Shown: in pieces, positions 1,459-62,200 of the stretch
Layout: every line of letters begins with the position of its first letter
How positions within the stretch are numbered: the first letter of the stretch is position 1
NCBI GenBank assembly: GCA_037349105.1
Contig: JAYJMM010000103.1
Location: 2,356,001 to 2,420,000 of the forward strand
DNA from: Limnomonas spitsbergensis
Lineage: Eukaryota > Chlorophyta > Chlorophyceae > Chlamydomonadales
Reading direction: 5' to 3'
DNA: 64,000 nucleotides
Made by a program: the position numbers and the translations under genes
Notes under the pieces: generated by a model
The model's input: only the letters and a program-made list of their open reading frames with translations
Told to the model about the DNA's origin: nothing
Database searches by the model: none

Positions 1459-4400
1459 TTCTGGCGAGATCTCAACGGCATGATCAGCGATGCAACTCTC
1501 TCCATTGGCATCCAGTGCAACGAGAAGCTATCCACTCTGGCGCACCACCTGGCCAACACGCCGCAGCCCAGGTGAGCCCAGGTCCACTCTCGCCCACCAC
1601 CAGGCCCACCACCTTGCCCACCATCTGGCCAACACGCCGCAGCCCAGGTGAGCCCTGCTTCACTCTGGCCCACCACCTGGCCCACCACCTTGCCCAACAC
1701 GCCGCAGCCCAGATGAGTCGAGGTCCACTCTCGCCCACCACCAGGCCCACCACCTGGCCAACACGCCGCTGCCCAGGTGAGCCCTGGTTCACTCTGGCCC
1801 ACCACCTGGCCCACCACCTGGCCAACACGCCACAGCCCAGGTGAGCCCTGGTTCACTCTGGCCCACCCCCTGGCCCACCCCCTGGCCAAAACGCCGCTGC
1901 CCAGGTGAGCCCTGGTTCACTCTGGCCGACCACCTGGCCCACCACCTGACCAACACGCCACAGCCCAGGTGAGCCCTGGTTCACTCTGGCCCACCCCCTG
2001 GCCCACCACCTGGCCAACACGCCGCAGCCCAGGTGAGCCTTGCTTCAATCAGGCCCACCACCTGGCCCACCACCTGGCCCAACACGCCGCAGCCCAGGTG
2101 AGCCCAGGTCCATTCTCGCCCACCACCTTGCCCAACACCTTGCCCACCATCTGGCCAACGCGCCGCTGCCCAGTTGGGTCATTTAGTGTTTTGCTTTTTG
2201 CTGGCATGGGATGTCCTGACTCGGCAATTGTGAGTGCGCGGTGTGTCACTTTTTATGTAATATGTACCAGACAGATTTAAGTTGATGTGTCATCCCAGAC
2301 ATATTTTGTTTAGTGTGCACCAGGCTCCATGTGGTAGGCCGCTGGGCAACTGCCCAGACGTTGACCAAACCATGACCGGCCTGGCCACAGGCCGTGCTGT
2401 AGCTGAGTTGTAGCTGAGTTGTTGCTGACTTGTAGCCGAGGTGTAGCTGAGGTGTAGCTGATGCAACTTAAAAAGGGGAAGTGTTGTGTGGGTGGAGCGG
2501 AGGAGGGGATGGGGTGAAGCCCAGGCCTTCATGCAAAAATGTGAAGTGCATCAACAATGTTCCTGATCCATATCTTGATTTCTCCCTGATCCATATCTTG
2601 ATTTCTTCCTGATCAATATCTTGATTTCTTCCTGATCAATATCTTGATTTCTTCCTGATCAATATCTTGAGATGATACCTCTGAGAGTGCAGAGGTGCGT
2701 GGGGACGGGTAAGTATGAGTGTGGGTATCACGCAACAAGAAGAAACGAACGGAGTGCTGCCTCGCCTGATGTTGCATATTCTGCTGACTGTTGGAGCTTC
2801 TGTTGCGTTTGTTGCTGACGACTGCTGCTGCCACTCTCGATGGGAAACGCTGTCGCTGCCGCTGCTGCTGCTGCTACAAATTGGTACTGTAGCTGACTGC
2901 CATATCTGCTGTTGCTGCTGCTGATTGGCGTTGTTGTTATTGTTGTTGTTGATGCTGCTGATGTTGCTAGGTATCACGACGAGTCACGCGAGGTGTTGCA
3001 ACTCATGGAGGACCTGGGTGGCGTGGACGTCGTGTTGAGGGATGAGGGGTGTCTTATGCAGGTGGCCAGCAAGCTAGATGCTGGCGAGCAACTGGTGCTG
3101 AGGAAGGTGGGTGGGGCACTGTGCTGGGTGTGGGTGGGTGGGTCACTGTACTGTCGCAGGTGGATGGGGCACTGTGCTGGGTGTGGGTGGGTGGGTCACT
3201 GTACTGTCGCAGGTGGGTGGGGCACTGTGCTGGGTGTGGGTGGGTGGGGCACTGTACTGTCGCAGGTGGGTGGGTCACTGTGCTGGGTATGGGTGGGTGG
3301 GTCACTGTACTGTCGCAGGAGGGTGGGCCACTGATCTTTTGCGGGTGGGTGGGTCACTGTACTGTCGCAGAAGGGTGGGCCACTGAGCTCGTGCGGGTGG
3401 GTGGGTCACTGTGCTGGGTGTGGGTGGATGGGTCACTGTACTGTCGCAGAAGGGTGGGCCACTGAGCTTTTGCGGGTGGGTGGGTCACTGTGCTGGGTGT
3501 GGGTGGATGGGTCACTGTACTGTCGCAGAAGGGTGGGCCACTGAGCTGTCGCGGGTGGGTGGATCACAGTGACAGGTGTGGGCGCGTGGGGATTTGCTTG
3601 AGGGTGAGGGTGCAGGGTGTGGGTGGGTGGTTGAGTGTTGGGGTGTGTTGGGGCAGGGCCAGGTGTTGATGTGGAAGGGAACACAAGTGCTTAGGTTATG
3701 TTTAAAAGGCACTGCCACGGTGACAGTGGCCAAAGACTCCTTGCAGGATTGGCTTTGAAAATTGAATTCAAAAATGGTAATTTAAACAATGTCCTCTGTG
3801 GATGAGCGGGTTTGTCGATGATTGTGCCATTGTGTGGGGCGGTGTGGGAATGTGTGGGAACAGGAGATCTACAAGGATCTCCCAGCATTTTCACACTGTT
3901 CCTACAGTGTGGAACCCCCTCTAAGCCCTCATCCCCGTGCGTGCCTGGCCGCAGGTGCACGAGGCTGCCGAGCTGCTCGCGGCCAATCGCGACGAGGGCG
4001 TGCACAGTCTCATCCTGCACCCGGCCATGCGGGTGTTCTGGCGCAAGTGCTTCAGCCCGCAGGGGGACGTGCCCTGGAGCCTGTGGTGGGAAGTGTTCCC
4101 CGAGGAGCTCAAGCGGGTGCAGGCGCTGACACACGAGGTGTGAGCGGGGGGAGATCCGGGGTGTGAACAGGGATATGTGTAGAGGTACTGGCGTCTTCAT
4201 CTAAGTGTGGGAGGTGTTCCCCGAGGACTCAAGCAGGTCACGAGGTGGGAAAGGAGGGGGGGAGGGGGGGGGCTAAAATGGTAGACGCTCAGGTGCTGAC
4301 AAGACCACACTGAGGAGGATGGTAGGGCTTGCCAGGGTGGTCGGTGCTTGGACGTGTGGTGCCTTGGCAGCGCTTGGGAGGAGTTGGGGGCACTACGCAA

Positions 4401-7400
4401 CCGTCAATACCACCCTGAAGAGAGTCGAAGGGCTTGCCAGCGTGGTCAGTTCTAGGACGCGGGTGCCTTGGCAGCGCTTGGGTGCTGTCAGTGTCACTTT
4501 GAAATGTTGTGTGCGCAAGTACCGGTATGCAAACAAGCGGGATGTCCCGTCGCTTATCCGCTGCCTAGCTGACCGCGTAACTCCTCACCCTCACCCCCCC
4601 ACTTCAATTCTGAATGGAACGTCGCCTTGCTCATGCTGTTCCTGCCTGACCGCTACCCACCTTGCACATGAATCTTCACCCCAAACCTGTAACCTAACAG
4701 ACCGTCTCGTCGGTGATGCGTCGCCTGGCTTACCCGCTAACCCCTCAAATCTGAACCCTGAACCCTGAACAGGACGTCTCGTCACTGATGTGGTGTTTAG
4801 CTAACCCGCTAACCCCTTACCCTTAAACCTTCGCCCTGAACCCATAACAGGACGTGACGTCACTGATGCGGCGTCTGGCAGATCCGCGCCGCCGTGAACT
4901 GTTTGAAAAACGCTTGCGCCTCTACTCACCTGACCGGCTCAGCGTAGGGGAGCTGCGTCGCGGCATCGTACCGCACGACGCTGACCTGCTGACGGTTGTA
5001 CTGCAGCTCACGGAGTCTCCGGAACTCGACGGCGAAAGCGGGGAGGATTTGGAGGGCGGTGCGGCGACGCTCGCGTCCGCCGTGGCTCCCCCTTCGGCTG
5101 GTGCGGCCAGAGGGGGAGGCGCGAGCGTGGCTGTAGACGCAAGGAAGCAACCGGAGAGAGAGCTGCGTGGCGGCGGCGGCGGTGCCTCGGCGAGCTCCCG
5201 CTGGCCGCTGCCGTCCGTCGACTGCCACCTGCCCGCTCTGGACCCGCGTTTCGCCGCCCGCGAGGTGGACGTTGCGGCGCTGGTGCAGATGCTGCTGCAC
5301 AGAGGGCCCGCCCCACCCGGCCGCGCCCCGCCCTTGGCCTCGCTCCATGTGGCGGGCAAGAGCAGGAGCAGCAAGTGGAGCAGCATGGCGGTGTCTGTGG
5401 GGGCGGTTGGCGCCACCAAGGGCGCGTGCGTTTGCATTGTGGCGGAGCCTGGGCAGCCAAAGTGTGCGCTGGCCGCCGCCGCGGCAAGGAGCATGTGGGA
5501 GGGCGGTCATGTGCCAGGTGGTTGCTACCTAGTGGACTTACAGGTGCGATCTGCATTAGTATACCGGTTTTCCCGCAACTCTAAACCGTAAACCCTAAGT
5601 TATGTCCATATTGTTTGTAGCCCACTGTTTATTTTAGTGTCTTTCAGCTACAACTCAGCTACATGCTGGCCTCTGGCCGAATGCCCCTAGTGCAGCCAGC
5701 CCTGTTGCTTTGACCTCCAGCGGGAGGCTGGTCCAGATTTAACGCCCAGCTGCCCAGCTGTCGTTGTAGGGCAGCCCATCAAAGGCGGTTTGGTACCTCC
5801 TGAAATAAACACTGATACATTGTAGCCCATACCCTCCACAACTTTGCCCTCCGCTGTACAGGGGTCAGGTACTCATGCTGAGCTGCTGGACAGGTTTGCA
5901 CGTGCGCTCGGCGCTCCGCCGACGAGCTCTCCGAAGCAGCTCCTGAGCCGCCTAGCTCGCTTGATGGAGCGGGGCCGCTGCCTTATCGTTGTGGACAACG
6001 CGGATAGCTTGGTCCCGGCGGTGAACAGCGCGGCCTCCATTGAGGGTCCGCCCTCCTTGTTCAGTACGGGGAGGGCTGTTGACGCTGCCTCGGCAGCAGC
6101 AGCAGCAGCAGAGGCTGGCAGCAGTTTAGAGGGCCCGGCGGCGTCTGCGAGGAGGCGCGCGGCAGCTGGCGGCATCAGCGTCAGCGCTTTGAGCAAGGGG
6201 GGCCCGGCGGCTTCACGCAACATGCGCCCGGTAGGCGCGTCGGTCGCGGTAGGGAAGCAACAGGCAGCGCGAAGTGGTGGCAACGGTGGTGGCGGCGGCG
6301 GCAGCAGTATGGATGGCCTTGCGGGCGGCAGCTTGATGGATCTGCTGGTGGAGGAAGTGGAGCAGCTGTTGCGTATGATTCAAGGGGCTCTGGAACCTCA
6401 GGTGGGACACGGCATGATCTGGGGGTAGCATTGTTATTTATTTCGCTGTTGTTGTTGCTGTTGTCGCTGTGCAGTTGTTGTTGCAAATCATAGGAGGAGG
6501 GGCTCTGGAAGCTCAGGCGGAGGGGCACGTAGGATCAGACTGGTGTTACCGTATCTGATTGAAGCATTGCTGTTGTTGCTGTTGTTGCAACAGGCTGTTG
6601 CTACTGTTGCTGTTGCTATTGTTGCTGTTGTTGCTGTTAAGCTGTTCTTGCAACTCATCCGAGGGTCGTTGAAGCCTAGGGTCTGGCTAGAGGGTTGTGG
6701 CATGAAACCATTTAATGTTGTTGCATCATGTTGTTGTTGTTGCTACTATTTATCATATGATTTATGCATGTTGTTGCTGTTGTTGTTGTTCCTGCTATTG
6801 TTGCTGTCTATTGTTTTTGCAATTGTTGTGTATCCAAGGGGTTCATAAACCTCAGGTGTGGCACACAGTGCACGCCTTGGTCTGGTTAAATGCTGTTGTA
6901 AGTGTTGCTGTTTTTGTTGTCATTGCCGTGTTGCCGCTCCCGAGCATGCACCGAGGGCGAGGCGGTCAGCCCCGTATGGATGTTTCAGGGTTGGCCTGAC
7001 AATGTGGGGGGTCTTGGTGGTCCAGCTCAAGCGTCACAAACAAAGGTCCAGGAGTCATCTGTCAATAACGTTACACCTCTGGGCCCGCTCAAAGCTCGGC
7101 CGCGTGGGCGCCCAAATGTTCAGAAGAAAAGAAGACACTACAAGGAAGAGGGGGGGGAAGGAACAAAAGGAGAGGCCGGGAAGGCAGAGAAGACCAAGTC
7201 CGACACCTGAGTTCCACTAGAGACTAGCCCTCAACAAAGCCTATGAGAAAAGAAAAGTCCACAGAAGCAAGCGTATCCCACCCCTGCTTGGCCGCAAGGG
7301 CGCCCCACTGATCAGAAGGGAGAAGAGAAGAAACTAAAAAGGGGGCAAACAACAACAAAAATAAAGGATCAAAAGGGAAGGCCAGAAAGGCTAACGACAC

Positions 7401-10400: not shown

Positions 10401-13400
10401 GGCCGCCGAGCATGCGGCCGTCGGCAGACGGTGGTGGTGGTGGCGGCAGCCTCGGCTCGAGCTTTGCGCTTGGGAGCTTGCTGCTTCCTCCGCCGGCCAG
10501 CTCGTCCACCCCGGTGGTGAAGCTCCTCGCGTCGCTCACTCGGACACTCACGGTGTGTGTGCCGACAACGTGGATGCCTCTTTCACATCTCAGATCCGGT
10601 TTCAGATCTGGCTCCTGATCAAGTTACAGATCTGGCTTTCACAGTGTCCTGGTGCTCCGTAGCATCCTGTTCCCTCTTGATACAGAGAATAAACTGGATA
10701 CTGGCTGGAGAATAAACTGGCTAGTGGCTGTGTTCTCCTTTACTGCTCTGGCCCACAGGGCCACATCCTCTCAACCGTCAAAGAGCGCTGTTCCCCTTAC
10801 TGGTAGGCGCTTTGCCCCCGTGCCCTTTCACCCACCCTGGCCCCTGGCACCCCCCCTGGCAGGTGCGTGGTGGAGCCCCGGGATTTGCCGCAGCCGCAGC
10901 CATCAAGGCGGCCCTGCTTTTGAGGCCGATGGACGCCAGGTCCGACGACACCTCCTCGGACGCCGCTCCCTCAGCCGCGCTGTCCCCCGCGTCTGACCAT
11001 TACGTTCTCCCACCGTCCGCACGGGGGATGGTCGGTGGTGGCCATGCAGCCGCCGCCGGCGCCTCGGCGGCCTCGCCGCTGACGTCGGTGGACCGGGTCG
11101 TGTCTGGAATCGGCGGTGTGCTGGCGGGCCTGCCTGCACAGCACTACAAAGCGGTCCTGTGCCTGTCCGTCTTCCCAGGGACCTTCAACGACGCCGCGGC
11201 GGCTGCGGTGCTGGGCGTGCCGAGCTACGCGGCACGCGCCGAGTTCGAAATGCTGGAGGGCTTCAATTTGCTGTTCAGGTAAGAGAGGCGGGAAGCGCTT
11301 GTGGCTCTGACTTTCGCTGGGGAGTATCAGCCAGAAAGCCAGCTGGGGAGTATCAGCCAAAAACCCAACCTCCAACGCCTAGTAGAGAGGAGCACCTTGA
11401 GGAATACGCTCGGAAGGCAGCGTGGTTTAGGGTCACGGTTGACGCACGCTAATCCATCAAGACGAGCACCCAGAACACCACGCTTGGAAGGCAACGTGGT
11501 TTAAAGTGGTTTAAAGTGACCCTAAACCCTGATCACGATGCTCGGAAGGCAGCGAGCCTGACGCCGCAACCGGAAGCGCCATGGTCACCAGCTGGAACGT
11601 TCTGCTGTAGTTTTGGCCTTGGTTGTCAGGGTTTAGGTCTTAGGGTTTAGGGTTGGCAGGAAGGTCCACGCTGCAATGGACCTGAGTTCCTCGCATGTGT
11701 GATGACGACGACAATTATATTTCATCAGGGGGGATCAAGGCGGCAGCTTCCCCTTTCAACCCTCTACTATGGGAGTACGTAGTTTATGCCGCAGCTGCGG
11801 TGGAAGTAGTGTTGGCCTGGCTCTGCCACACTGCATTGATCGTCTCTGACAGAATTGGTACCCCTCGAGGTTACCTCAGGGTTTGCTGGATTGGCCATTG
11901 GGTCTGGCAATCCCTTTTGGCCGGCTATCAGCAAGTCGGATGACTTTCGAGTGCTCTGGACTTGATGTCTTGCTGGCCGTCAGCCCTGGAGCCTGCTTTT
12001 CCTTGCTCGGACGCTCTTCCTTGCTCTGTGTAGAACTAGCGATGGGGCTTTAGGGTTGGGGTTTAGGTTTAGGGTTTAGGTCCTGCCCGGCTGTGTGTAG
12101 AACAAGCGATAGGGCATTAGGGTTTAGGGTTAGGGTTAGGTCCTGCCCGGCTCTGTGTAGAGCAAGCGATGGGGCGGCCTCGGGGCGGCTTGCTCAAGGT
12201 GGACTTGTAACCGAAACAATTAGCACTGGCAGCGGCTGCCCGCAGATGGCTGTTGCAGCAACACTGAGTCTCGTCCCTAGAGTTGAGTCCTGTGCCCGGC
12301 TCGGTGCAGAGGCTCGCAGCAGGGCAGCGGCTGCCTGCGGATGGCTGCTGCAGCAACCCTGAACCCCGCAGATGGCTGCTGCAGCAACCCTGAACCTCGC
12401 AGATGGCTGCTGCAGCAACCCTGAACCCCGCAGATGGCTGTTGCAGCAAACCTGAACCCTGCAGATGGCTGTTGCAGCAACCCTGAACTCCGCAGATGGC
12501 TGTTGCAGCAAACCTATACCCTGCAGATGGCTGCTGCAGCAACCCTGAACCCCGCAGATGGCTGCTGCAGCAACCCTGAACCCCGCAGATGGCTGCTGCA
12601 GCAAACCTAAACCCTGCAGATGGCTGCTGCAGCAACCCTGAACCCCGCAGATGGCTGTTGCAGCAACCCTGAACTCCGCAGATGGCTGTTGCAGCAAACC
12701 TAAACCCTGCAGATGGCTGCTGCAGCAACCCTGAACCCCGCAGATGGCTGCTGCAGCAACCCTGAACCTCGCAGATGGCTGCTGCAGCAACCCTGAACCC
12801 CGCAGATGGCTGTTGCAGCAAACCTGAACCCCGCAGATGGCTGTTGCAGCAAACCTGAACTCCGCAGATGGCTGTTGCAGCAAACCTAAACCCTGCAGAT
12901 GGCTGCTGCAGCAACCCTGAACTCCGCAGATGGCTGTTGCAGCAAACCTAAACCCTGCAGATGGCTGTTGCAGCAACCCTGAACCCCTTTCCTATATTTC
13001 GGTCCTGCCCTGCTCTGTGTACAAACTTGCCTTATGACAATGGCTGCATGCTTTTGAATGCTGAGACAAATCTCAATTAAAATTGAACAGAGCCTTTACT
13101 CTTCACCTACAACCGTAAACCCTGAACCCAAAAGCCCTAAACCCAAGCCCTGTTCCCCTTATCCCTGAACCCCCATCCAGGGTTAAAATCCAGGGACAAT
13201 ATCCCTGGACACGAACGCCAAACCCATACCCTGATCCCCTACCCTGAACCCTGTGTGCCTGACCCTCTGCTTAGGAACTCGAGGGAGGGCGGCTGCTGCC
13301 TGCAAGCCGCGGTCCGCGAGGCCGCCGCCCAGCTGCTGCTCACAGACGCGTCGCAGGCGGAGCGCACCAGCGCCTCCTGCCGTTTCTTAGTTCACGTGCT

Positions 13401-16400
13401 GGGCCAGCTACGCCAGGTACCTCCAGGGTCCTGTTAGATCCGGGTAGATCCAGTTAGCCCCCAGGAAGATCTGAGTAGATCTGACTGTATTGCCTGTTTT
13501 TTTTGCACGTGCTGGGCCAGCTACGCCAGGTACCTCCAGGGTCCTGTTAGATCCGGGTAGATCCAGTAAGCCCCAGTAAGATCTGAGTTTATCTGACTGT
13601 ATCGCTGTTTAAGTGCACGTGCTGGGCCAGATATGCTGGAAACCTTCAGGGTCCTGTAAGATCCGGGTAGATCCAGTTAGCCCCTGTAAGATCTGAGTAT
13701 ATTTGACTGTATCGCTGTTTAAGTGCACGTGCTGGGCCAGATATGCTGGAAACCTTCAGGGTCCTGTTAGATCCGGGTAGATCCAGTTAGCCCCTGTAAG
13801 ATCTGAGTATATTTGACTGTATCGCTGTTTAAGTGCACGTGCTGGGCCAGATATGCTGGAAACCTTGAGGGTCCTGGTAGATTCTGTCACATGTCCAATC
13901 TTGGTAGATCCAGTTGGACCCAGGAAGATCCCGTCAGATCTGACGTTTTTGCCGGGTTTGTTAAGATCCTGTTAGATCCTTACTGGTGCTGGATTTGATA
14001 AGATCCCGTTCAGTCCTGTTCGGCTTCCGATTTTGCACCGAGCGACTTCTGGTCGCTGCTACAGGTGTCTGTTTTTTCAGGTGCCTACACTTTCAGGTTG
14101 TGACATTCGACGCAAGACTCGATTCCCTGTCTTAGGAGAGGGCTAAAAATGGTAGATGCCGCGAAGCTGCCGCAGCCATTCAAAGGACCCCTCATAGCTT
14201 TGGTTCTTGTGGCTAGTTCCCCCCCGGTTTGCTCTGCCTGGCCCTTTTGCAAAAGGCTGTGGGTGGTTGCGTCAGCTTTGAAACAACAACTTCTTAGGAA
14301 GCTACGAATGTTATAGAGAGAAGCCCACAGTCTTCCCACACGGTAAGAATGAGCAGTAGGTACGCTGACCGTAGACTTGATTTGCCTTCCCTCGGGTATG
14401 AAAACAAGTTTTATTCGAATGCTGCCCTCAGGGCAATTTTTTGACAAAACGCATCATCCCTGACTGAACACTGGCGCCCACAATCGATAATTCGTATATT
14501 GATGGATCCCTCAACCCCAAAGGACGTTAATTATGAGGGAAGGCAAGGCAAATCTACGGTACATGAAACCAGATAAAATAGAGGAAGTGAGGAACCCCAC
14601 TCATGGGGCTGGGGGTGGCTTTGGGCTTCCCCTCTCTCGCCCCACTGTCCTGGTGCTCCCCTCCACCACACACACGTGCCCCTCAAGCCTCCGGCCCCCA
14701 GCACCCTTTCCCTATCACCCGTGCCCTCCTCTGACCGGGCGGACCGGCTGTACAACAGTGCGGTACAGCTCAACCTAGGCCCTTCGCGGACCGGCTGTAC
14801 AATACTGCGGTACAGCTTTATCCTAAACCTGTCTGGTCAGACCGGCTGTACAATACTGCAGCACTGCTAAACCGATAACCCTAAACCTGTCCGGAGGACT
14901 GGCTACAAAATATTGTGGCACAGCTTAACCCTTAACCTCAACCCTTTACCCTGTTCCGACTGACCGGCTGTACAACAGTGCGGTTCGGCTTAACCCTTAA
15001 CCCCAAAACGTGACCCCTGCCCAGGCGGACCGGCTGTACAACAGTGTGGGACAGCTTCACCCTTAACCCCAAAACGTGACCCCTGCCCAGGCGGACCGGC
15101 TGTACAACAGTGCGGTACAGGCCTCGATGCAGCTGGCCATGGAGGTCCGGAGTGACCTTCTGGCCATGATGCACGTGACAGCAACCTGCAGCGATAGGGA
15201 CCAGGTGAGAGGGCCGGGGCGGGGCATGCTTAGAATAAATAAATAAACGGCTGGCCGGGGCGGTGAGTCATGGGTAGAACAGGCTGGGTGAGGGAACCTC
15301 GCCTGCTTGCAGGCGAGGTCTCCTCACTGCGCGGAGGATCACCGCAATCCGCTTCCCCACTTTGTAGATAATCGGCTGGCCTGGCGGTGTCAAATTGGTT
15401 GGTGACAGGGACCAGCCTGTGAGCGGGTTGGGTCTCCGAATAAATTCCGGGAATGCAGATTTAGGAAGCAAGGGCCCTTGATGACTCTGCGTGTTGAAGT
15501 TCCCAAATGTGTGTCCCCTCTATCATTAACACCACCTCTCTCCCCCTTGTTCACACTTGTACACCCCCACCCTCCCCCCATCTCCGACCCTGCAGATTCT
15601 GGCGGTGCTGGGGATCGATGGCCTCTTGCTGCTTGCCAAGACGCCCATTATGGCGGCCCTCGCCCTGGATGGCGAGCCAGAGTGCGAGGCGCTGTGGCGG
15701 GCGCTGTCCGGCTCGGCAGCTCCGGAGCCCGTGACGGCTCCCGAAGCGTCCCCATCTGACCTGTCGCTCATAGGTAAGGGCTGATGACGGTGCTCTGGGG
15801 CGTTATATACTTGAATTTGAGGTTTTCTGGAGGTTTCATTGTGTGTTTTGCCTTCGAGTCCTGATTGAAACTTGGTTTTTGATAGGGCATGTGATGCCTT
15901 GCTTTACTTGAGCACCGGAATGAAGGTCATACTTCGCCCTATTGGTTCATTGAGGGAGCTGAGCTTCGCTAAACCTCAACGTGTTCACACCAGGTTCACA
16001 CCAGGGTGTGTTGGAAGACCAAGCGCCACGTAGAATTCCGCTTCCGAGCGTCCATAAGTAGAAAGTGTCCTTCAGCTTTGCCATCTGTTTGTTTGACACT
16101 ATGCTTGATGCTCCCTTTGCTCGTGGATACCAGTTCCCCGAGGCGCAGGTGGCAGCGTGCTGGCCCTCATACTCCCCGACTGCCTAACTATCTTAACTCT
16201 ATTACTCCTTGTTGTGGATTTGCTATGCCTGCCCTCATATCATTGTCGTTGGTCGAGGGTTGGGGACAAATACAAATACGAGTTGTTCATCGTCCAAACA
16301 GATTGCAGAGTTTTGGCCAACTTTTCACCCGTTTCTGGTTCAAGTCGTGTTTTTTTTGAACTCATGGATGGCATATGAAATTTTTGGTGTGTCTACATCC

Positions 16401-19400
16401 CACCACTGGGAAGGCTACAACTTGTTCAAAACAAGCATCCGAAGCTAGGTCTGCACTTGCCTCTCTCAGGTGACGACCAGAAACAGGAGCCGCAGCAGGG
16501 CACCGCTGCCCGCGGCATCGGTGCAGTTCGCAGCGTGCCCCGTGCCTCCCCATCCATGGACGAGGATCCGGGCATGCAGGCGATCGCCCTGCGGTGTCTG
16601 GGCCACGCCCTCACCAAGGGCAGCAGGTGGGGGGCAGAGCAGGACTGGGCCACGCCCTCACCAAGGGCAGCAGGTGGAGGGCAGAGCAGGACTGGGCCAT
16701 GCCCTCACCAAGGGCAGCAGGTGGGGGGCAGAGCAGGGCTGGGCCCTGCCCTCACCAAGGGCAGCAGGTAGGGGGCAAAGCAGGGCTGGGCCACGCCCTC
16801 ACCAAAGGCAGCAGGTGGGGTGCAGAGCAGGGCTGGGCCATGCCCTCACCAAGGGCAGCAGGTGGGGGGCAGAGCAGGACTGGGCCATGCCCTCACCAAG
16901 GGCAGCAGGTGGGGGGCAGAGCAGGACTGGGCCTTGCCCTCACCAAGGGCAGCAGGTAGGGGGCAGAGCAGGACTGGGCCACGCCCTCACCAAGGGCAGC
17001 AGGTAGGGGGCAGAGCAGGGCTGAGGGTGGTGGCTGGTGCCAGGGGCCCATAGTCCCAGGCCACTCAGCTAATTTAGGGTTCATTTATATTCAGCTTCCA
17101 TTCAGCTTCAATTCAGCTACATATGACTACATGAGGTATGTCACAGCCTATGGCAGCTGGGGGGAGCTCTGGTACCGGAAGCCCTGATGCTTGGGCAAAA
17201 GGCTGCGTGCAGGTCCAGTATACCATTGACATGACCAGCGGCGTAAACTAAACCCTAAACTAAACCGGCATACCGGTGTATAAAGAAGCACGAGGCCGAC
17301 CGAAGGAGCACCTTAAGAGAGAAAAACGCGAGATGACACATGAACAATCGCACCCAATCCTGCCGCCCCCTCGTTCTCCCCCCTCCCCCCTCCCCCCTCC
17401 CCCATGTTTCTCCCCCCACCTCTTTCTTCCCTCTCTTGTAGATACATTGAGGCCGAGGCTGCCTTGAGGACGGCGCTGAGCCTCTCTTGGGACATTTATG
17501 GTGAGGATTCCCTCGAGGTGGCGGCCTGCCTCAACGAGATCGGGATTATGCTGACAACAACCAACAGGTAAGGACCCAATCCTTAAATCTGACCCTTAAC
17601 CCTGCTCTTCGCCCACCTTGCATAAACCCTAAACCCTGACCCTAAACCCTGCTCTTCGCCCACCTTCCATAAACCCGTAACCCTGACTTTAAACTCTGCT
17701 CTTCGCCCACCTTGCGTTCACTTTTAACCCTGACCCTAAACTCTGCTCTTCGCCCACCCTGCGTAAACCCTTAACCCTGACCCTAAACCCTGCTCTTCGC
17801 CCACCCTGCATAGACCCTTAACCCTGACCCTAAACCCTGCTCATTTCCTCCCTGCAGGTATGTCCAGGCCGAGACCGTGTTGCACCGTGCGCTCAACCTG
17901 CGCACACGCCGCCTGGGCCCGCACCACTTGGACGTGGCTGCAAGCAAGAACAGCCTTGCAAGGGTCTTCAGGTGTAAGGCGAGGTGAGAGAGCTGGCGGT
18001 GCTGCGGCATGGGGGGCTGGTTTGTGGGGGGATATTATGGTTGGGTGACATTGGAGGAGAGAAGTAAGGGGGGGGGAGGCTTTGAGGAGGTAGCTGGCTG
18101 CTCAATGATACTGCTGACCACAAGGTTTTGGGGTAGAGGGTTTGGGTTCAGGGTTTGAGGGTCAGTAGCCCTGGGCAGTGTGCCGAGCTTTGCCATTGTT
18201 TTTGCTCATACTGCCTATACCTCCGCAGAATCTCCGTACTTCAGTCCCACCCAGCCTAAGAAAGAGCTGTATGACACGCAGCACTTGGTAGTGTTGGTCT
18301 GGTGGATCATGAATAAACAGATCACTTTCAATGGGTTCCGGAGGCGGTAGGTGGGTGGTTGGTAGGCTTGGGTGCTCGATATTTTGAGGGGGGGATTAGG
18401 TCCCCAGCTTTTGTTTTGCCCCCCCCCTTGCATCAAAGTCGTTCTGCTTGTACTGCCTGTACCTCCGCTGAATCTCTGCATCTCAGTCCCACCCTTTCAC
18501 CCGGCCGTCTTCTCACCCGTACTGCCTTCCACGAAGCAGGTACGCTGAGGCTGAGGCGTTGTACCGCGAGGCCCTGGCCATCCGTACTGCTCTGCTCCCC
18601 GACTGCCACCCGGATCTTGCCGAATCATACAACAACATTGGGATCAGTCTGGGGCAGCAGAAGCGGTACGCTGGCGAGGAGCAGTTGTACAGACAGGCCT
18701 TGGACATCCGCAAGCGGTCCCTGGGTCTGGACCACCCCGAGGTGGCTCAGGCGCTGAATAATGTGGGCACGTCGCTGGCCAACCAGAGCAGTCACGCAGA
18801 GGCGGAAGCCGTGTTCAGGGATGCACTGGACATCAAGACGCGCGTTCTGGGGCCGGGCCACCCTTCCGTCGGCGTGAGCCTCAACAATGTCGGCCGCGCC
18901 CAGGCCAAGCTGGGTAGAGTAGCAGAGGCCGAGGCGACGTATCGCCGGGCGCTGGCAATCATCGAGGCGTCGCTCGGGCCGATGCACCCTGCCGCAGCGA
19001 CGTGCATGGCCAACGTCGTGAGCATACTACGCAAGCAGCCGGGCAGGGAGCAAGACGCGGCGGCGGCAAAGAAGGAGTACAAGAGCAGGTTTGGCACCGC
19101 GGCCAAGGCAAGCGCAGCGGTTGTGGCTGCGGCGGAGGCAGAGGGCCTCGCGGGCGGGCATATGTTTGCTGCGGGCGGTTTGGAGGTCGCCGGGGGGGAG
19201 GAGGACGAGGACGCGCCTCCGGTCAATGGCAACTTGATGGCTGACGAATCGATTTCGGGGTCCTTCAGCCGCTCCAATGTTGCCGCGGCGGCGACCGCGC
19301 TGGCGCTTGAGGCGGCCGGCCCGAGCTACGACTACGGCTTTGGCGGGGCGACCGCCCTCAGTACCGTCCCTGAGAACACGCGATGGACGCCAAGCTCCAA

Positions 19401-22082: not shown

Positions 22083-22103
22083 GCGCTCTGCAATCTTTCT
22101 GCC

Positions 22104-26221: not shown

Positions 26222-26223
26222 GC

Positions 26224-49158: not shown

Positions 49159-49184
49159 ATGATGAGCTGATATCAGCTCATCAT
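49159..49184. repeat. 26-bp perfect palindrome
   Basis: The arms ATGATGAGCTGAT and ATCAGCTCATCAT meet at a GATATC centre with no spacer. No function is assigned. Confidence 0.8.
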
Positions 49185-50060: not shown

Positions 50061-50139
50061 AGGGCCCGGAATATGTTGTTGTTTTATGATTCAGTAAGTG
50101 CTGCCTCGATGTAGCGATGCCCCTTGACAGTACGTTCCT

Positions 50140-50900: not shown

Positions 50901-51289
50901 CACCCAGGTTAAACGCCTCTCACACACAACACTGCAAGTAGTTGAGGACTTCTTAGCCGCGCTTTCTCCCACCAGCTGAACAGGCAACATGCGCATGCAC
51001 AGAGTTTCCTCTTCTCTCCCGCATTCTGGCAACGATATACACCACCGGGGCGTCCGCCAATGCAGGCCAAGCCATGTGTGCAGGCAGCCGCTGCGTTGCT
51101 TCGCCAGCGCACCTGGTCCAGATCGAGCACCCTTGACGTACTCCCGGGTTATCAAACGACCAATCAGCGACGTTTTCAACGTAAGCCCGGTGGGCTCACC
51201 TCCCTGCGCTCTTTTCCACGCTCACTTACGATAAACGAGTGTAAGCGGTGCCGTTTGGAACCTCTGGAATACAGGCCGGCCATCATAAT

Positions 51290-51515
51290 TCGGGACCCGC
51301 CTTGTGCATGGCAATGCATGGCACCTGCCTCGTGCTGAACAACACATGGCACCTGCCTCTTTTTGGCAGTGTATGGCACCTGCCCCGTGCATGGCATTGC
51401 ACGGCACCTGTCTTGTGCTGGCAGTGCATAGCAGCTGCTTCATTCATGGCAGTGCATGGCATCTGCCTCCCACGCAGCAGTGCACGGCACCTGCCTCGTC
51501 CCTGATTCAGGACTA
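51290..51515. repeat. About 30-bp minisatellite
   Basis: Seven imperfect units of GCAGTGCATGGCACCTGCCT plus CGTGCTG lie upstream of the first exon placed for the 51.8-57.9 kb gene. Confidence 0.85.
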
Positions 51516-51826
51516 CCCATGCACGCATGACACTTCTGCTGCATTTTGGCCATTGCTTGCGTGCACAGTATTAAACCGCTGTTAGGATAACTGATGGGGG
51601 CTATTTTATGAGGAAGACAATCCCGCCCCTCCTCGGCCTTAACAACAGTGTCACCCTTGCGCCTCGTACACTTCCAAGCATCCCTGAATGAGCCTCATGG
51701 GCTACGATTCCTCCTATCATCGTCTAATCACAGCAGTAGTGACATCACATCTCCTACGCTTCCCACTTCCGAGTACCCCTGAATAAGGCTCATTGGCATC
51801 CAGGCCGGTCCCATTGTCCCGCACAG

Positions 51827-54800
51827 GCCGTCGCAGACTTTCGGACTGTGGGCATCTACTCTCCCATCTCGTCGGGCGAGATGGTGAAGGGCGACGAGCC
51901 GACGGAAATTGGCGCCCAATTCCGTGTGTACGGCTCGGTCAACCTCGGCCCACTGAAACTGGTGGGGAAAAAGGCCATGGCTCCACCCCCACTATGCTAG
52001 CTGCACTGACTACTGCTGAGTCAACAGCCTTTAATCATTTAGCAACTGAGTGACGGGCTGCTGAGCCATCTGCGATGAGCCACCTTTGCTAAGTGCTGCT
52101 GAGCAACCTGCGATTTGCCCCCTGCGCTGACTGCAGCTGAAGTGCCCAGCCACCTGCAATATGCCACTTGCTGTTTGCTGCTGAGCCATCAGAATGAGCT
52201 ACCTGTACAGACTTATGCTGTGCCACCCGGCACCCGCCCTTGAGCAGCTGGCCATTGAGTATCAGGCTGCTGAGCCATCTGCAACGAGCTACCTGACGCT
52301 GAGTGCTGCTGAGCCATCTATGATAAGCCACCTGTGCTGACTGCTGCTGAGCCATCTACGATATGCCACCTGTGCTGACTGCTGCTGAGCCATCTACGAT
52401 ATGCCATCTGTGCTGACTGCTGCTGAGCCATCTACGATATGCCATCTGTGCTGACTGCTGCTGAGCCATCTACGATATGCCATCTGTGCTGACTGCTGCT
52501 GAGCCATCTACGATATGCCACCTGTGCTGACTGCTGCTGAGCCATCTACGATATGCCATCTGTGCTGACTGCTGCTGAGCCATCTACGATATGCCACCTG
52601 TGCTGACTGCTGCTGAGCCATCTACGATATGCCATCTGTGCTGACTGCTACTGAGCCATCTACGATATGCCACCTGCTCGGACTGCTGCTGAGCCATCTA
52701 CGATATGCCACCTTCGCTGACTGCTGCTGATGTGCTGAGCCACCTGCGATGTGCCACTTGCTGTTTGCTGCTGAGCCATCCGCCCTTGAGCAACTGGCCA
52801 CTGAGTATCGGGCTGCTGAGCCATCTGCAATGAGCTACCTAATGCTGTGCCTCCTGCCCTTACCTGCTGCTCTCGCCCTCTAGACGGGCAATGAGGGATT
52901 CCCTGCAACGGGGAAGGATCCTGAGGACGCCCAAAATGCATTGTTGTCAGACTCTTGCCACAGGCAGGTCAGACTCTAGCCACGGGCAGGTCAGACTCTA
53001 GCCACGGGCAGGTCAGACTCTTGCCACGGGCAGGTCAGACTCCAGCCACGGGCAGGTCAGACTCTTGCCACGGGCAGGTCAGACTCTTGCCACGGGCAGG
53101 TCAGACTCTTGCCACGGGCAGGTCAGACTCTTGCCACGGGCAGGTCAGACTCTTGCCACAGGCAGCTTAGACTCTTGCCACGGGCAGGTCAGACTCTTGC
53201 CACGGGCAGGTCAGACTCTAGCCACGGGCAGGTCAGACTCTTGCCAAGGGCAGGTCAGACTCTTGCCAAGGGCAGGTCAGACTCTTGCCACGGGTAGGTC
53301 AGACTCTTGTCACGGGCAGGTCAGACTAGTGCCACGGGCAGGTCAGACTCTTGCCACGGGCAGGTCGGACTCTTGCCACGGGCAGGTCAGACTCTTGCCA
53401 CGGGCATGTCAGACTCTAGCCACGTGCAGGTCAGACTCTTGCCACGGGCAGGTCAGACTCTTGCCACGGGCAGGTCGGACTCTTGCCACGGGCAGGTCAT
53501 ACTCTTGCCACGGGCATGTCAGACTCTTGCCACGGGCAGGTCAGACTCTTGCCACGGGCAGGTCGGACTCTTGCCACGGGCAGGTCATACTCTTGCCATG
53601 AGCATGTCAGACTCTTGCCACGTGCAGGTCAGACTCTTGCCACGGGCAGGGTCGGACTCTTGCCACAGGCAGGTCAGACTCTTGCCACGGGCAGGACATA
53701 CACAAGTTGCCACCAGTCCGCTGTGCATGTGTATACGAGTGTTTGTTTATTGCTTGCACATGTATTTTATGTTCCCTCCAGTCTGCTTCTGCATCTGTTT
53801 GTGTGTGTGACCGTGGCTGTCTTTTGCTCGTTGCTTGCAGAATGTATGCACAGATGACACCCAGTCTGCATGTGCATGGCATGTGTGACTGTGAATTATA
53901 GCCGAATATGCGAATATGGCTGTAATGAGTGCTTTAGCTTCTATATACTTTTTAGGGGGGTTTTCAGCATTAAAATTAACGGCAATATTTTTTGCATTTG
54001 TATGGACGCGTGGTACATTACCACATTATCGTTATGATCAATTTATGCGACTAAGTTGGAAAGCGTATTTACCCTAAGTTTAGGTATTTTTGCTACAAAC
54101 GCTAGTTTAGATGTTATTTGCTTCTTGTTTCTTGCTTTCAGGATGGATGCACAGATCACAATCAGTCCCTCCGCGAATCTGTGTGTGACTATGACTGACC
54201 GCTGCAACTGTCTCTTGCTGGTTGTTTGCAGAATGGGTATGCAGATTACCGCCAGTCCGCCTGTGCATGGCATATGTGTCTAAAAGGGTGTGTTTGCTTC
54301 TTGTCGTTTTCCTTGCAGGATGGGTATGCAGATAACCGCCAGTCCGCCTGTGCATGGCATATGTGTCTAAAAGGGTGTGTTTGCTTCTTGTCATTTTCCT
54401 TGCAGGATGGGTATGCAGATTACCGCCAGCCCGCCTGTGCATGGCATATGTGTCTAAAAGGGTGTGTTTGCTTCTTGTCGTTTTCCTTGCAGGATGGGTA
54501 TGCAGATAACCGCCAGTCCGCCTGTGCATGGCATATGTGTCTAAAAGGGTGTGTTCGCTTCTTGTCGTTTTCCTTGCAGGATGGGTATGCAGATTACCGC
54601 CAGCCCGCCTGTGCATGGCATATGTGTCTAAAAGGGTGTGTTTGCTTCTTGTCGTTTTCCTTGCAGGATGGGTATGCAGATTACCGCCAGTCCGCCTGTG
54701 CATGGCATATGTGTCTAAAAGGGTGTGTTTGCTTCTTGTCGTTTTCCTTGCAGGATGGGTATGCAGATTACCGCCAGCCCGCCTGTGCATGGCATATGTG

Positions 54801-57800
54801 TCTAAAAGGGTGTGTTTGCTTCTTGTCATTTTCCTTGCAGGATGGGTATGCAGATTACCGCCAGCCCGCCTGTGCATGGCATATGTGTCTAAAAGGGTGT
54901 GTTTGCTTCTTGTCATTTTCCTTGCAGGATGGGTATGCAGATTACCGCCAGTCCGCCTGTGCATGGCATATGTGTCTAAAAGGGTGTGTTTGCTTCTTGT
55001 CGTTTTCCTTGCAGGATGGGTATGCAGATTACCGCCAGTCCGCCTGTGCATGGCATATGTGTCTAAAAGGGTGTGTTCGCTTCTTGTCATTTTCCTTGCA
55101 GGATGGGTATGCAGATTACCGCCAGTCTGCCTGTGCATGGCATATGTGTCTAAAAGGGTGTGTTTGCTTCTTGTCGTTTTCCTTGCAGGATGGGTATACA
55201 GATTACCGCCAGTCCGCCTGTGCATGGCATATGTGTCTAAAAGGGTGTGTTTGCTTCTTGTCATTTTCCTTGCAGGATGGGTATGCAGATTACCGCCAGC
55301 CCGCCTGTGCATGGCATATGTGTCTAAAAGGGTGTGTTTGCTTCTTGTCGTTTTCCTTGCAGGATGGGTATGCAGATTACCGCCAGTCCGCCTGTGCATG
55401 GCATATGTGTCTAAAAGGGTGTGTTTGCTTCTTGTCGTTTTCCTTGCAGGATGGGTATGCAGATTACCGCCCGCCCGCCTGTGCATGGCATATGTGTCTA
55501 AAAGGGTGTGTTTGCTTCTTGTCGTTTTCCTTGCAGGATGGGTATGCAGATTACCGCCAGTCCGCCTGTGCATGGCATATGTGTCTAAAAGGGTGTGTTT
55601 GCTTCTTGTCGTTTTCCTTGCAGGATGGGTATGCAGATTACCGCCAGCCCGCCTGTGCATGGCATATGTGTCTAAAAGGGTGTGTTTGCTTCTTGTCGTT
55701 TTCCTTGCAGGATGGGTATGCAGATTACCGCCAGTCCGCCTGTGCATGGCATATGTGTCTAAAAGGGTGTGTTCGCTTCTTGTCATTTTCCTTGCAGGAT
55801 GGGTATGCAGATTACCGCCAGTCTGCCTGTGCATGGCATATGTGTCTAAAAGGGTGTGTTTGCTTCTTGTCGTTTTCCTTGCAGGATGGGTATGCAGATT
55901 ACCGCCCGCCCGCCTGTGCATGGCATATGTGTCTAAAAGGGTGTGTTTGCTTCTTGTCGTTTTCCTTGCAGGATGGGTATGCAGATTACCGCCAGTCCGC
56001 CTGTGCATGGCATATGTGTCTAAAAGGGTGTGTTTGCTTCTTGTCGTTTTCCTTGCAGGATGGGTATGCAGATTACCGCCAGTCCGCCTGTGCATGGCAT
56101 ATGTGTCTAAAAGGGTGTGTTCGCTTCTTGTCGTTTTCCTTGCAGGATGGGTATGCAGATTACCGCCAGTCTGCCTGTGCATGGCATATGTGTCTAAAAG
56201 GGTGTGTTTGCTTCTTGTCGTTTTCCTTGCAGGATGGGTATGCAGATTACCGCCAGTCCGCCTGTGCATGGCATATGTGTCTAAAAGGGTGTGTTTGCTT
56301 CTTGTCGTTTTCCTTGCAGGATGGGTATGCAGATTACCGCCAGCCCGCCTGTGCATGGCATATGTGTCTAAAAGGGTGTGTTTGCTTCTTGTCGTTTTCC
56401 TTGCAGAATGGGTATGCAGATTACCGCCAGCCCGCCTGTGCATGGCATATGTGTCTAAAAGGGTGTGTTTGCTTCTTGTCATTTTCCTTGCAGGATGGGT
56501 ATGCAGATTACCGCCAGCCCGCCTGTGCATGGCATATGTGTCTAAAAGGGTGTGTTTGCTTCTTGTCATTTTCCTTGCAGGATGGGTATGCAGATTACCG
56601 CCAGTCCGCCTGTGCATGGCATATGTGTCTAAAAGGGTGTGTTTGCTTCTTGTCGTTTCCTTGCAGGATGGGTACGCAGACTACCGCTTGGCTCGATCTG
56701 AGCGGGACAGGCTCCTGATGTGGGACGTTGTCAACACGCTGGGACAGTCGGTGCAGACGATGGCCATGGAGCCGGTCTCCCTGCTCTGCGCAGCGGGAGC
56801 CGAGGGCACGAGCGGCAGCGGCTTGGCTGGGGGGTCCAAGGCAGCCACGCTGCTGAGTTGGACGCTCAAAAGAGTCAGCAGCGAGAGCGCGGGGGATGTA
56901 CCGGTGACCCTGTGGGTGAGTGCCTGTGGGTGGCTTTGAGTGGCTTCGATTTGGCTTGCGTGGCTTTGAACTGGCACTTGAATTTGGGTTTTTTTGTGGG
57001 TTAGTGTCTGTGAGTGGCTTCAAGTTGGCTCTGAGTGGTTGTGTCGATGAGTGGCTGTCAAAAAGCTAAGATTTATGGTAAGCGGTATACCGGTAAGCGG
57101 TATATATTAGCCGAAATATTAGTCCCAAATTGGAGAACATATGCCACCTGATAGGATCATCTGTGGAGCTAGCTGACGCTGAATGAAAGCTGACTGTGTG
57201 GGACTGGGGGGAAGTGCCAGTAAATTGATATCGTTGCGCTTCAGGCGGACTTTGGGTTCGGCCAGGTCGCCACCACTGGGCCCATGAGGACTAAAGCTGG
57301 ACTGGCCTGTGGCCCGTGGCCCAAGCTGCAAGGCTTGCTTCACCACGCCTCCTCATTTCGCCTGACCCCATGTGCATTTCCCCCCGTTACTGCCTCTGTA
57401 ACATGCAACGCCCTCTTCAACTCTTTCATATTTCCTCGGGGCTCTCCCCCCGAATCACCCCTGGGAGCGAACCCCTTACTGTGCGTCCCTGTATCTGCAC
57501 CACAGACAAGCAGGTATTTCCCTTGTATGTTTGCGGTGACGACTGGTTTAACGGGACCTCTGCAGGGCTCAGGGAGCCCACAAGACCTCTTGACCCTGGG
57601 CTGCCGCACGCTACGCGCTCCTTCCCTCTTTCAGTACCCTCGAAATTTTACTTCCTTATGGTCCCTGCATCCCTCTCTCAGCACCCTCGGAATTCCACTT
57701 CCTAATGGTCCCTGCATCTGTGTGCCATTGCAGACGCAGTTCGCAATGATAACCGGGTTGACGGGGCTGCTACAGCGCTTGGGAAGCTACGATGATGTCA

Positions 57801-59282: not shown

Positions 59283-62200
59283 CTACACCCGCACGGCCGC
59301 CGCTGCTACTTGAGCCTGAAGTGCCATCATCTCCATTGTCTGCGCCTGCACCTCTCCACGCATCTACGAGCATCATGGCAAAAATGCAGGTAGCAGGTCA
59401 CCATCATTGCAAGAATGCAGGTAGCAAGTCAGCAGCGGCGCTTGTTGCCAGCGCGAGGGGATGCAGGTGACAAGCTGGTTTAGGATGTTGCATGCTTGCT
59501 AAACCTGCATCCTTGCCGGTAACAAGCAGAGGGTGGCTCCTTGTCGATGCACGAGGATGCAGATAACGAGTCCTCCGACCATTTCCAATGTGCGATAAAA
59601 GTAAAACTAAACTAAAACCAAATCAACGATTTCAGGCTAAAAACAAATACTTGGGGGTTCTCGTTAGAAAGAAAGAAACTACGCCCTACTGGGGCGTGGA
59701 GATAAAGGAAACAACGCAGCTTGGGCCGTAGCCATATCCGCGCTGTTACCACGGGTGATTGTCAATAGACCGTCCAAGAAGTTGCTTCACCTGCAGGATT
59801 CGCCCGCTGCATCACCAGTAATGTGGCAGCCAGGAAGTGGTTAATAATTTCGAGTCGTAACCAGTAACGGTTTAGGGTTTTTTAGTACTTACTGGTTACG
59901 AGTCGTAACCAAAGTGGTAACCACACAATTAATTTGGCGAAGCTGAGGTTCAGTTGCGAGGTAACGAAAACTGACGAGATCAATTAAAATCGGGATTTTT
60001 CCGCCACCTGCGACGTGTTCTTCAACAAGAACTTCACCAGAGCTCACCACTTATGGTAACAAAAGTTAATTCCGAATGCCGCTAAAAATTCCTGGTGGCA
60101 GAAACTTTTCCCATGGCCTTCTGTCGACTCATACTCTACTAGATGGCATGCCCAGGCAATCACAGCTCCCCTTCTTACCCAGATCCTTTCTGGCAGCCTG
60201 TGGGGCATCAGTCGCTCAGCAACCTCACTCCGAGACAAGGGAACAGTGCCTCTATTCCAGAGTGAGGTTGCCGAACTCGAGCAGAAGATGCCCAGTCCGC
60301 TGGGGAATCTGCATCTGCAGGGTACTCATCATCTTGGTTCGCCAACCCTTTCCCATTGAATATCACCTAACAAAGTGAATCCCCTGATTCTAATTTATTG
60401 CCAACCCAACCACCCACGCACATCCCTCCCTAGTCCCGGCAGACTCCAGCAGCTCCAGCGTACTTCTGACACAAGGCACAGAAACCACTGCACTACTGCA
60501 GACTTCTTGAAAAATTGCTCCCCATGCTTTGCAGGGCTCTGCGTCCCTCTACCATGGAGGGCTGCATGTAAAGAAACCAGTCCTAGCCACACCGCTGCCA
60601 GGCCCACACCTTGATCATCTGCCCCTGCGCTATATTCAACTCCGCCTTGGCCTTGGCGCACTCGTACGTCGCCCTGCTGTATTCCTAAACAGCAGCAGAT
60701 GCACGGCGCGATCAAGAAGGGACGGCGAGTACACAAATGATCATGAAGCGACAGCGAGTGCACGAGCGATCATGAGGCAGGCTCCTTCCTTGCTTTTTGC
60801 TTAAATGTTAAAATGTCTGATGCAGCCTCCTGCTGTGCTACTCAATCTGCTCAAGACCCGTAAAAATACACTTGTGGCCAATGGCCACTGTCAATCAATC
60901 AATCCCAATGCCCAAGAGAGAACCACCGGGCAGGGGTGAAGCCATGCAAGTATGTGCAATAGGTTGGAGCAGGGACATGCACTGCATACAGAACGAACTG
61001 TGTGCTATATGAGCCCATGGCCTCCAACAACATATAAAACTGCCTCATACAAAATCTACGGTCCGGAATACAAAGGTCGACAACACTAGAAGACAGGTGT
61101 GTGAGCTGCAAAGATCTTTGTCAGCACGGGGCGTGGTGGCAAAATTGCCCTGCTCCTAAATTGATGCAACTCACAGTCTCACATCAGTGCCACACAGGAC
61201 CCCCACGTATAATAAATCTCAAACTTGTTGTAGTATTATCCAACTCTCCAACCTGAGCTCACTCCTGCCCTTGACACCCACATTGAGCCTCACCATCTGC
61301 CAGCTCACATTCGGACACACCATTTGCACATCTGCCAGCTCACATTCGGACTCACCATTTGAACATCTGCCAGCTCACATTCGGACACACCATTTGCACA
61401 TCTGCCAGCTCACGTTCGGACTCACCATTTGAATATTTGCCAGCTCACATTCGGACTCACCATTTGAATATTTGCTAGCTCACATTCGGACTCACCATTT
61501 GCACATCTGCCAGCTCACATTATGACTCACCATTTGCACATTTGCCAGCTCACATTATGACTCACCATTTGAATATCTGCCAGTTCCCTCTCCGCCCTGC
61601 CCAGCCTGTCCTTCATTGCTTCTCTCGAGGTGGAGTCGGAGAGCATCGCCGTCCTCTTCGCCTCAGCCTCAGCCAGCATATCTGCAACGCGCTCCTTGCT
61701 CGCCTCGAGCGCTCCCTAATGAGGGCAGGCAGGAAAACCAACCGTCAAGCCAGCGACAAACAAGACACGGGGAGCACCGCCATCCGCTTCACGTCAGCAG
61801 GGCCACAAGCGGACACTTGTAAGAGGTGGCTAACCGCGTTGTCCTCCTTCCAAGGCAGACGCCGATCTGGGGGAGCAGGACACGCGGGGGTGAATGAGGG
61901 CATCTATGCGACTCAACCTCATAACACGACTAACTTCCTCCAACACCCTCTCAGTTCTTCCCGCTAACAGGTCCTTTCCCCTACCAGATGTCCTCTCTGC
62001 TCCCTTGCCATGGAGCACCAAAGAAATGCTATTTTGTTCTCAGTTTCCTCCTCACATTCTTTTGATCCTAGTTACCTCCCCTCGCACTTTGTGTATCCTA
62101 GTTTCCTCCCCACATTATTTTATCCTAGTTTCCTCCTCACACACTACCTCCATGTCTTGATTTTTGATCCTAGTTTCCTACCCACACACTTTTTGCATCC

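Follow-up and report, generated by a model that had tools for sequence, protein, structure and literature searches.

Do tandem repeats gather at exon-intron borders through a process tied to the border itself, or does the border merely lie within introns that duplicate along their whole length? The question is raised by a 64,000-nucleotide stretch of the Limnomonas spitsbergensis genome (hereafter the window), for which the initial annotation described minisatellites on at least a dozen splice junctions in four genes and inferred a local process at exon-intron borders. We re-examined the junctions of the window and counted repeated junctions in conserved genes from other parts of the genome. 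What had been described is for the most part real and extends beyond the window; the border-tied process is not supported, leaving room for a modest junction excess.

Repeated junctions in the window

We scored each junction by its best ungapped self-match spanning the border (match +1, mismatch -1.5), calling it repeated at a score of at least 20 with at least 7 on each side; a relaxed setting accepted at least 4 per side, and under it none of 150 reversed-sequence controls scored in the 14-20 band. By this test, nine of the 15 junctions named in the initial annotation carry a clear tandem copy across exon and intron and three a weak one, while three have no spanning copy (Table 1; the pairing of its NLR exon numbers with junctions is our own matching). 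The weak cases are the NLR exon 5 and kinase NVLL donors, both scoring 0 under the standard setting and 15.5 under the relaxed one, and the coiled-coil donor at 62948, which falls just below threshold. At the NLR exon 3 donor an array adjoins the border and includes about 2 nt of exon but does not span it, at 57734 the array stops 15 bp before the acceptor with no spanning copy, and at NLR exon 6 no spanning copy was found by the ungapped test.

Table 1. Repeats at splice junctions of the window, and the kinase gene used as a test set.
Feature	Positions	Strand	Border	Evidence
Minisatellite across NLR exon 1 donor, 64-bp unit	1552..2144	+	first intron base 1572	TRF; score 69.0
Array of ~53 bp at NLR exon 3 donor	3105..3571	+	first intron base 3107	TRF; span score 0
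Repeat across NLR exon 4 acceptor, ~78 bp, 2-3 copies	4696..4879	+	first exon base 4851	TRF; score 28.0
Weak case: NLR exon 5 donor, with a single diverged copy 454 bp downstream	6363..6885	+	first intron base 6402	
Minisatellite across NLR exon 9 donor, 110 bp x 4.5	13389..13882	+	first intron base 13417	TRF; score 66.5
Minisatellite across NLR exon 10 acceptor, 66 bp x 3	14920..15120	+	first exon base 15091	TRF; score 72.5
Minisatellite across NLR exon 12 donor, 47 bp x 9	16598..17023	+	first intron base 16627	TRF; score 81.5
Gene with a protein kinase domain (TKL-like), 12 exons and 11 introns	30337..45112	-		Spliced alignment
Repeat across kinase DFG-exon acceptor, 82 bp x 2.6	35800..36015	-	last intron base 35829	TRF; score 33.5
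Weak case: kinase NVLL-exon donor, with a single diverged copy 452 bp downstream	36830..37320	-	first intron base 37301	
Kinase hinge-exon acceptor and diverged upstream copies	39932..41185	-	last intron base 39967	Score 44.0; TRF
Minisatellite across third gene acceptor, 87 bp x 28	54226..56687	+	exon start 56667	TRF; score 27.0
Minisatellite across coiled-coil gene donor, 35 bp x 8	61294..61583	-	exon end 61566	TRF; score 61.0
Coiled-coil gene donor and weak copy 208 bp downstream	62740..62965	-	exon end 62948	Score 19.5

Copy number does reach about 28, as had been noted, in the 87-bp array of the third gene (29 acceptor-like copies by pattern); the NLR exon 1 array holds eight donor copies by the same kind of count. 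At the kinase hinge exon the best copy lies at an offset of 412, with arrays at 39972-40342 and 40951-41185, and acceptor-like copies were chosen there by a second run of the spliced alignment (DP). The models of the third gene, whose exon has no Pfam match, and of the coiled-coil gene are based only on open frames and splice signals.

At least one clear case occurs in every one of the four genes, but most junctions of the kinase gene are plain. This gene, which matches Pfam PF00069 (E 6.6e-42) and PDB 4uya_A (E 1.2e-26), has repeats at 2 of 22 junctions, as compared with 22 of 66 points in intron interiors and none of 21 exon-interior points (from 7 of its 12 exons). By the same criterion, 40 of 150 random points across the window are repeated, and the description of the duplications as lying always at intron edges is thus wrong.

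Junction duplications in conserved genes

The larger sample, drawn from other parts of the genome (124 contigs, 260 Mb), consists of 27 conserved genes, 16 dynein AAA1 and 11 CCT/Cpn60, with 186 introns in all; CCT-family matches on contigs C82, C84, C97, C102 and C114 were left out. The dynein set contributes 87 introns, 8 of its 16 models span the whole 327-position profile, and no model used for the final counts has an exon shorter than 15 nt. Judged by protein similarity only, the spliced models restore conserved proteins, and one AAA1 model, 312 aa after splicing, can be aligned to a PDB 8glv chain over 309 residues with no gap (E 3.4e-189). The splice consensus in this genome is AG/GT at donors and AG/G at acceptors.

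In these genes 48 of 372 junctions are repeated (23 donors and 25 acceptors), distributed over 44 of the 186 introns, as against 0 of 722 in reversed-sequence controls (1 of 526 in an earlier pass over 77 introns). The best copy of a repeated junction always lies within the same intron (48/48), and the affected introns are longer than the rest (median 668 vs 376.5). Best-matching copies are a median of about 112-116 bp apart in the tested introns, 111.5 at junctions and 116 in intron interiors. The junction-copy offset is a multiple of three in 14 of 48 cases, approximately the chance expectation, indicating that the copies are not kept as coding sequence. Duplications are nearly absent from exon interiors (7 of 324 points, the other copy lying in a modelled intron for six of the seven and outside modelled introns for the last), and the statement that coding sequence away from junctions is not multiplied holds in the tested genes.

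Is the border a preferred site?

A local process favouring border duplications, such as R-loops or slippage at G-rich donors and pyrimidine tracts, predicts that junctions stand out from the rest of the intron. Comparison with random intron positions, proposed in the initial annotation and carried out here on the 27 genes, gives a mixed answer: the raw junction rate (48/372) is not above that of interior intron points (127/704, and 202/1006 in a second sample), while collapsing arrays to one copy yields a junction excess of 1.09 per intron (0.77-1.52) or 1.66 per bp (95% bootstrap 1.15-2.29). Arrays found by TRF and placed at random also suggest an excess (27 junction-spanning arrays seen vs 18.0 expected, p 0.02), nearly all of it from dynein (20 vs 12.3, p 0.019), with CCT/Cpn60 alone giving 7 vs 5.7 (p 0.33). 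If a junction is treated like any other site of the collapsed intron, 28.2 are expected, and restricting the count to complex units of at least 25 bp, a filter picked post hoc, gives 25 vs 13.9 (p 0.002); an early comparison on 77 dynein introns (15 spans vs 10.7, p 0.11) is superseded by the larger set.

When the copies are split by age, the per-bp ratios are 1.29 (identity below 0.85), 3.37 (0.85-0.92) and 1.23 (above 0.92), computed on a list that still included two false junctions of the dynein C109 model; the youngest class speaks against a border-directed process, the 0.85-0.92 class for a junction excess. A copy under selection on the protein should decay more slowly, which would inflate the number of older junction copies. 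The denser tandem repeats near intron ends reported for two other green algae (PMC3887541) speak for a border effect, as do the random-placement result and the per-bp ratio; set against the raw rates, the per-intron ratio and CCT/Cpn60, they leave a border hot spot unlikely. The borders probably caught the eye in the window because a copied exon end is visually recognizable.

Probable tolerance of duplications at borders

We consider it probable that these repeats reflect tandem duplication of an ordinary kind, which affects introns throughout and is tolerated at borders through use of the outermost splice site. Short tandem duplications would arise along introns at a high rate. Where one covers a border, the original mRNA could still be made if the outermost site were used, that is, the 5'-most donor or the 3'-most acceptor, and selection on the protein would tolerate the duplication because that site still yields the same mRNA. 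The extra exon end and splice site would then become intron sequence, able to expand like any minisatellite, and duplications wholly within exons would alter the protein and be removed. We infer such a neutral filter from these patterns, and the conservation of the proteins points to a putative outermost-site rule; the copying itself may proceed by slippage, unequal exchange or end joining.

The copies carry candidate splice sites of their own. The splice dinucleotide is intact in 42 of the 48 best copies, and in 25 of 48 the predicted strength of the decoy equals or exceeds that of the used site, used sites being assigned from protein similarity. In the dynein genes the decoy GT or AG is retained in 140 of 148 copies, vs 518 of 651 non-splice GT or AG dinucleotides in interior repeats, a comparison dominated by a few long arrays and counted with the false C109 borders included. 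Decoys are not purged, and the dynein retention figures support no more than this. A stricter version, in which an outermost-site rule anchored on the exon side ignores many equally strong decoys and lets introns lengthen through copies of their borders, combined with a mild border preference in mutation, is conceivable but doubtful.

Alternative explanations

The arrays might instead be relics of intron birth, the introns having arisen by tandem duplication of an AGGT-containing piece of exon. This mechanism is known from other work (PMC4974935; PMC2891723), and the splice consensus here has the form that the model requires. The distribution of the copies argues otherwise. Among the repeated dynein junctions, 21 of 30 lie at intron positions common to at least two paralogues (as do 59 of all 87 dynein introns). 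Of 11 junction duplications in two pairs of genes whose introns occupy the same positions, 10 occur in one copy only, at introns present in both. These pairs differ by fourfold-site distances of 0.69 and 0.33, and one sister border scores 16.0, below threshold. Such private duplications are unpolarized between gain in one copy and loss in its sister, and could in part be losses. In addition, the 5' end of the intron resembles the start of the downstream exon in one of the 88 dynein introns counted before two introns of C109 were merged, that one being a gene-model slip. The introns therefore look older than the copies, and the earlier suggestion that duplication continues once an intron exists is borne out; birth by AGGT duplication is a highly improbable source of these arrays.

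Nor do the inner copies look like functional alternative exons or splice sites, a use that the surviving and often strong decoys would allow and to which the 87-bp array, open in several frames, might seem to lend itself. The offsets are such that most copies would shift the frame, in the 87-bp array the final spacing is 86, which means that a same-phase read from an earlier copy misses the frame of the exon, and nearly all events in the gene pairs are private to one gene copy; regulatory or coding use is accordingly very unlikely. Tandem arrays are difficult to assemble, and one false border was found among the gene models and removed (a zero-length exon, dynein C109 at 5442). However, 35 of the 48 best copies are below 92% identity, divergence that misassembly would not create, the assembly consists of 124 contigs, two models agree with sequences of solved structures and the result recurs in two gene families, and we give almost no credence to an assembly or annotation artefact.

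Relation to known systems

The closest parallel is the amphioxus 'mirages', described in Adh3, the globins BflGb6 and BflGb9, TnC and PGBD5, in which units of 10-160 bp span the exon-intron boundary at the 5' or 3' side, many copies retain splice signals, and regular splicing is reportedly undisturbed (PMC3087553; PMC3902484). The repeats described here are of the same kind, their units likewise crossing the boundary in the window and in the conserved genes, with both border types affected. What is new is the host, a chlorophyte-like nuclear genome, and a genome-wide count on the 27-gene sample, in which the rate at junctions is compared with intron and exon interiors and events are found private to one member of a gene pair. 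Amphioxus is described as showing allelic and somatic instability, whereas here one assembly provides differences between gene copies only.

Intron gain by duplication of AGGT-containing exon sequence shares with our case tandem duplication involving splice motifs (PMC2891723; PMC4974935), but here the intron appears to come first and the copies lengthen it. The introns of Chlamydomonas and Volvox are similarly described as rich in tandem repeats that are denser near junctions, although that study (PMC3887541) is described as treating units of 1-50 bp counted inside introns, and is not described as addressing units that extend over the border. Introners too are intron-associated repeats that alter gene structure, yet they are reported to spread to many genes and make new introns (PMC9860276), unlike the present copies, which are local, tandem and derived from the gene's own border. 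A search of the open-licence literature, outside which most subscription papers fall, turned up no report of such border-spanning minisatellites from algae.

In about a quarter of the tested introns of the conserved chaperonin and dynein genes (44/186) a splice border is present twice or more, and the old question of how the spliceosome chooses among near-identical neighbouring sites becomes directly testable by ordinary RNA sequencing. If a strict outermost-site rule holds, such genes would form a natural library for the study of splice-site choice. The results suggest that, in a lineage distant from amphioxus, introns lengthen through duplication of their borders with no new intron being gained.

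Repeated junctions in the window

All exon borders are predicted from homology, open reading frames and splice signals; those of the kinase gene come from a spliced alignment to a reference that combined residues of the window itself with known kinase motifs, and those of the NLR and other window genes from translations. A junction was called repeated when an ungapped self-match crossed the border with a score of at least 20, and at least 7 on both sides. By this test nine of the 15 junctions named as repeated in the initial annotation, whose NLR exon numbers were assigned to junctions by our own matching, are clearly repeated, three weakly so and three not. The border arrays in the window are real. 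The further claim that borders are special fails within the window, since interior intron points and random points are often repeated too: in the whole kinase gene (TKL-like, minus strand, 12 exons and 11 introns) this holds for 2/22 junctions, 22/66 interior intron points and 0/21 exon points, and across the window for 40/150 random points. The tandem-repeat finder (TRF) returned 133 rows for the window. Several dynein introns elsewhere in the genome contain minisatellite units with the same telomere-like motifs as the window (see table), and the host of the NLR-like gene looks like a green alga.

In the array of acceptor-like copies upstream of one exon, copies are spaced 87 bp apart throughout, with a last spacing of 86, and several frames are open. 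Because of that last spacing, a splice of the same phase to an earlier copy would miss the exon's frame, and this argues for reading the array as intron.

Features of the window and duplicated chaperonin genes
Feature	Coordinates	Details
87-bp array, acceptor-like	window 54226-56687	29 acceptor-like copies by pattern
Long G-rich minisatellite in one kinase intron	window 32104-34536	20- and 28-bp units, ~95 copies (TRF); G-rich strand opposite the kinase gene
Strong GC skew, overlapping the G-rich minisatellite	window 32001-34000	0.578
Interstitial telomere-like motifs within many minisatellite units	window 1-811, 12023-12175, 17581-17842, 39972-40342	CCCTAAA/TTTAGGG
NLR-like gene	window 4851-20334	AAA_22-like nucleotide-binding part (E 4.3e-8) and TPR region; one putative gene in the initial annotation
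CCT duplicates	C39:6055000-6063047; C99:3125296-3134500	17/499 residues differ
Cpn60 duplicates	C36:4467334-4476300; C119:2693106-2702100	3/482 residues differ

Junction repeats across the genome

Because the window genes evolve fast, conserved families were chosen from the surrounding eukaryotic assembly (260.2 Mb in 124 contigs, with the window at C103:2356001-2420000). For dynein AAA1 (PF12774), 89 exon matches fell into 16 genes. All 16 were modelled, 8 across the whole profile, by GeneWise-like dynamic programming with a profile built from paralogues in this genome; the models contain 87 introns. The nearest match of one model is a chain of PDB 8glv, the Chlamydomonas axoneme, which together with the interstitial CCCTAAA-like repeats suggests a chlorophyte host. 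Eleven modelled CCT/Cpn60 genes (PF00118) added 99 introns. Splice signals are distinct: donors read AG/GT, with G at +5 in 168, and C precedes the acceptor AG in 156, of the 187 introns listed before two dynein introns were merged.

Repeated donors number 15/87 in the dyneins and 8/99 in CCT/Cpn60, and repeated acceptors 15/87 and 10/99; 26 and 18 introns, respectively, have at least one of the two. Interior intron points are repeated at 96/348 and 31/356, and exon-interior points at least 45 nt from a border at 5/162 and 2/162; for six of these seven exon matches the second copy lies in a modelled intron, and for one outside modelled introns. The control, reversed sequence of another gene, gave 0/524 and 0/198 (1/526 in a first pass on 77 introns).

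Preference for borders

As array length inflates interior points, these were weighted by 1/copy number. The junction/interior ratio per bp was then 1.66 (bootstrap 1.15-2.29), and 1.09 (0.77-1.52) with every intron counted once; unweighted, 202/1006 interior points of this sample are repeated. When TRF arrays were placed at random with one unit of overhang allowed, 18.0 border spans were expected and 27 observed (p 0.02); the dyneins account for nearly all of the excess (20 vs 12.3, p 0.019), and the CCT/Cpn60 count is 7 vs 5.7 (p 0.33). Under a post hoc filter for complex-sequence units of at least 25 bp the counts were 25 vs 13.9 (p 0.002), and taking a junction as any site of an intron with each array collapsed to one copy raised the overall expectation to 28.2. 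By copy identity, the per-bp ratio was 1.29 below 0.85, 3.37 at 0.85-0.92 and 1.23 above 0.92, in a list that includes one false acceptor and one false donor. A several-fold hot spot at borders is unlikely, though there may be a mild one; slower decay of the exon copy, which is under protein selection, would give the same appearance.

Age of introns and duplications

Intron positions common to at least two paralogues account for 59 of the 87 dynein introns and 21 of the 30 repeated dynein junctions. Of the 12 genes that share the commonest dynein intron (first pass), 2 have its donor repeated, 3 its acceptor, and 8 show no repeat at either border. In the CCT pair on contigs C39 and C99 and the Cpn60 pair on C36 and C119, with fourfold-site distances of 0.69 and 0.33, intron positions are identical within each pair; among 11 junction duplication events, 1 is common to both copies and 10 occur in one copy only, a count that includes one sister border scoring 16.0, under the threshold, and that fits both gain in one copy and loss from the sister. 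Taken together, these patterns make the introns look older than the border copies, with duplications that appear to keep turning over, which supports the proposal that they continue after the intron exists. The paired genes lie on separate contigs, often with very different intron lengths, and are possibly part of a larger genome duplication.

Decoy splice sites

Among 48 repeated junctions, the best copy keeps the splice dinucleotide in 42. Compared with the used site, it is predicted to be of equal or greater strength at 25 junctions and to come within 2 bits at 33. Its offset is a multiple of 3 in 14/48, so free use of inner sites would mostly shift the frame. Because the proteins are conserved, the outermost splice sites are probably the ones used, as exon-anchored site choice would yield.

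Relation to known systems

In Chlamydomonas and Volvox, tandem-repeat density is higher towards intron ends, but the passages of PMC3887541 that we consulted do not mention border-crossing units, and searches of an open-licence library turned up no paper that describes minisatellites across exon-intron borders in algae. According to passages of PMC3087553 and PMC3902484, the amphioxus globin, Adh3, TnC and PGBD5 genes carry mirages, tandem repeats of exon-intron boundaries, which reportedly leave the mRNA undisturbed. The present case shares both of the mirage features that were tested outright: repeat units that span a boundary, and their presence at 5' as well as 3' borders. Normal mRNA may also be made here, as the spliced models recover conserved proteins. 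We take it as the same phenomenon in a new lineage, and our analysis puts a rate on it across 27 genes, with interior points as the control.
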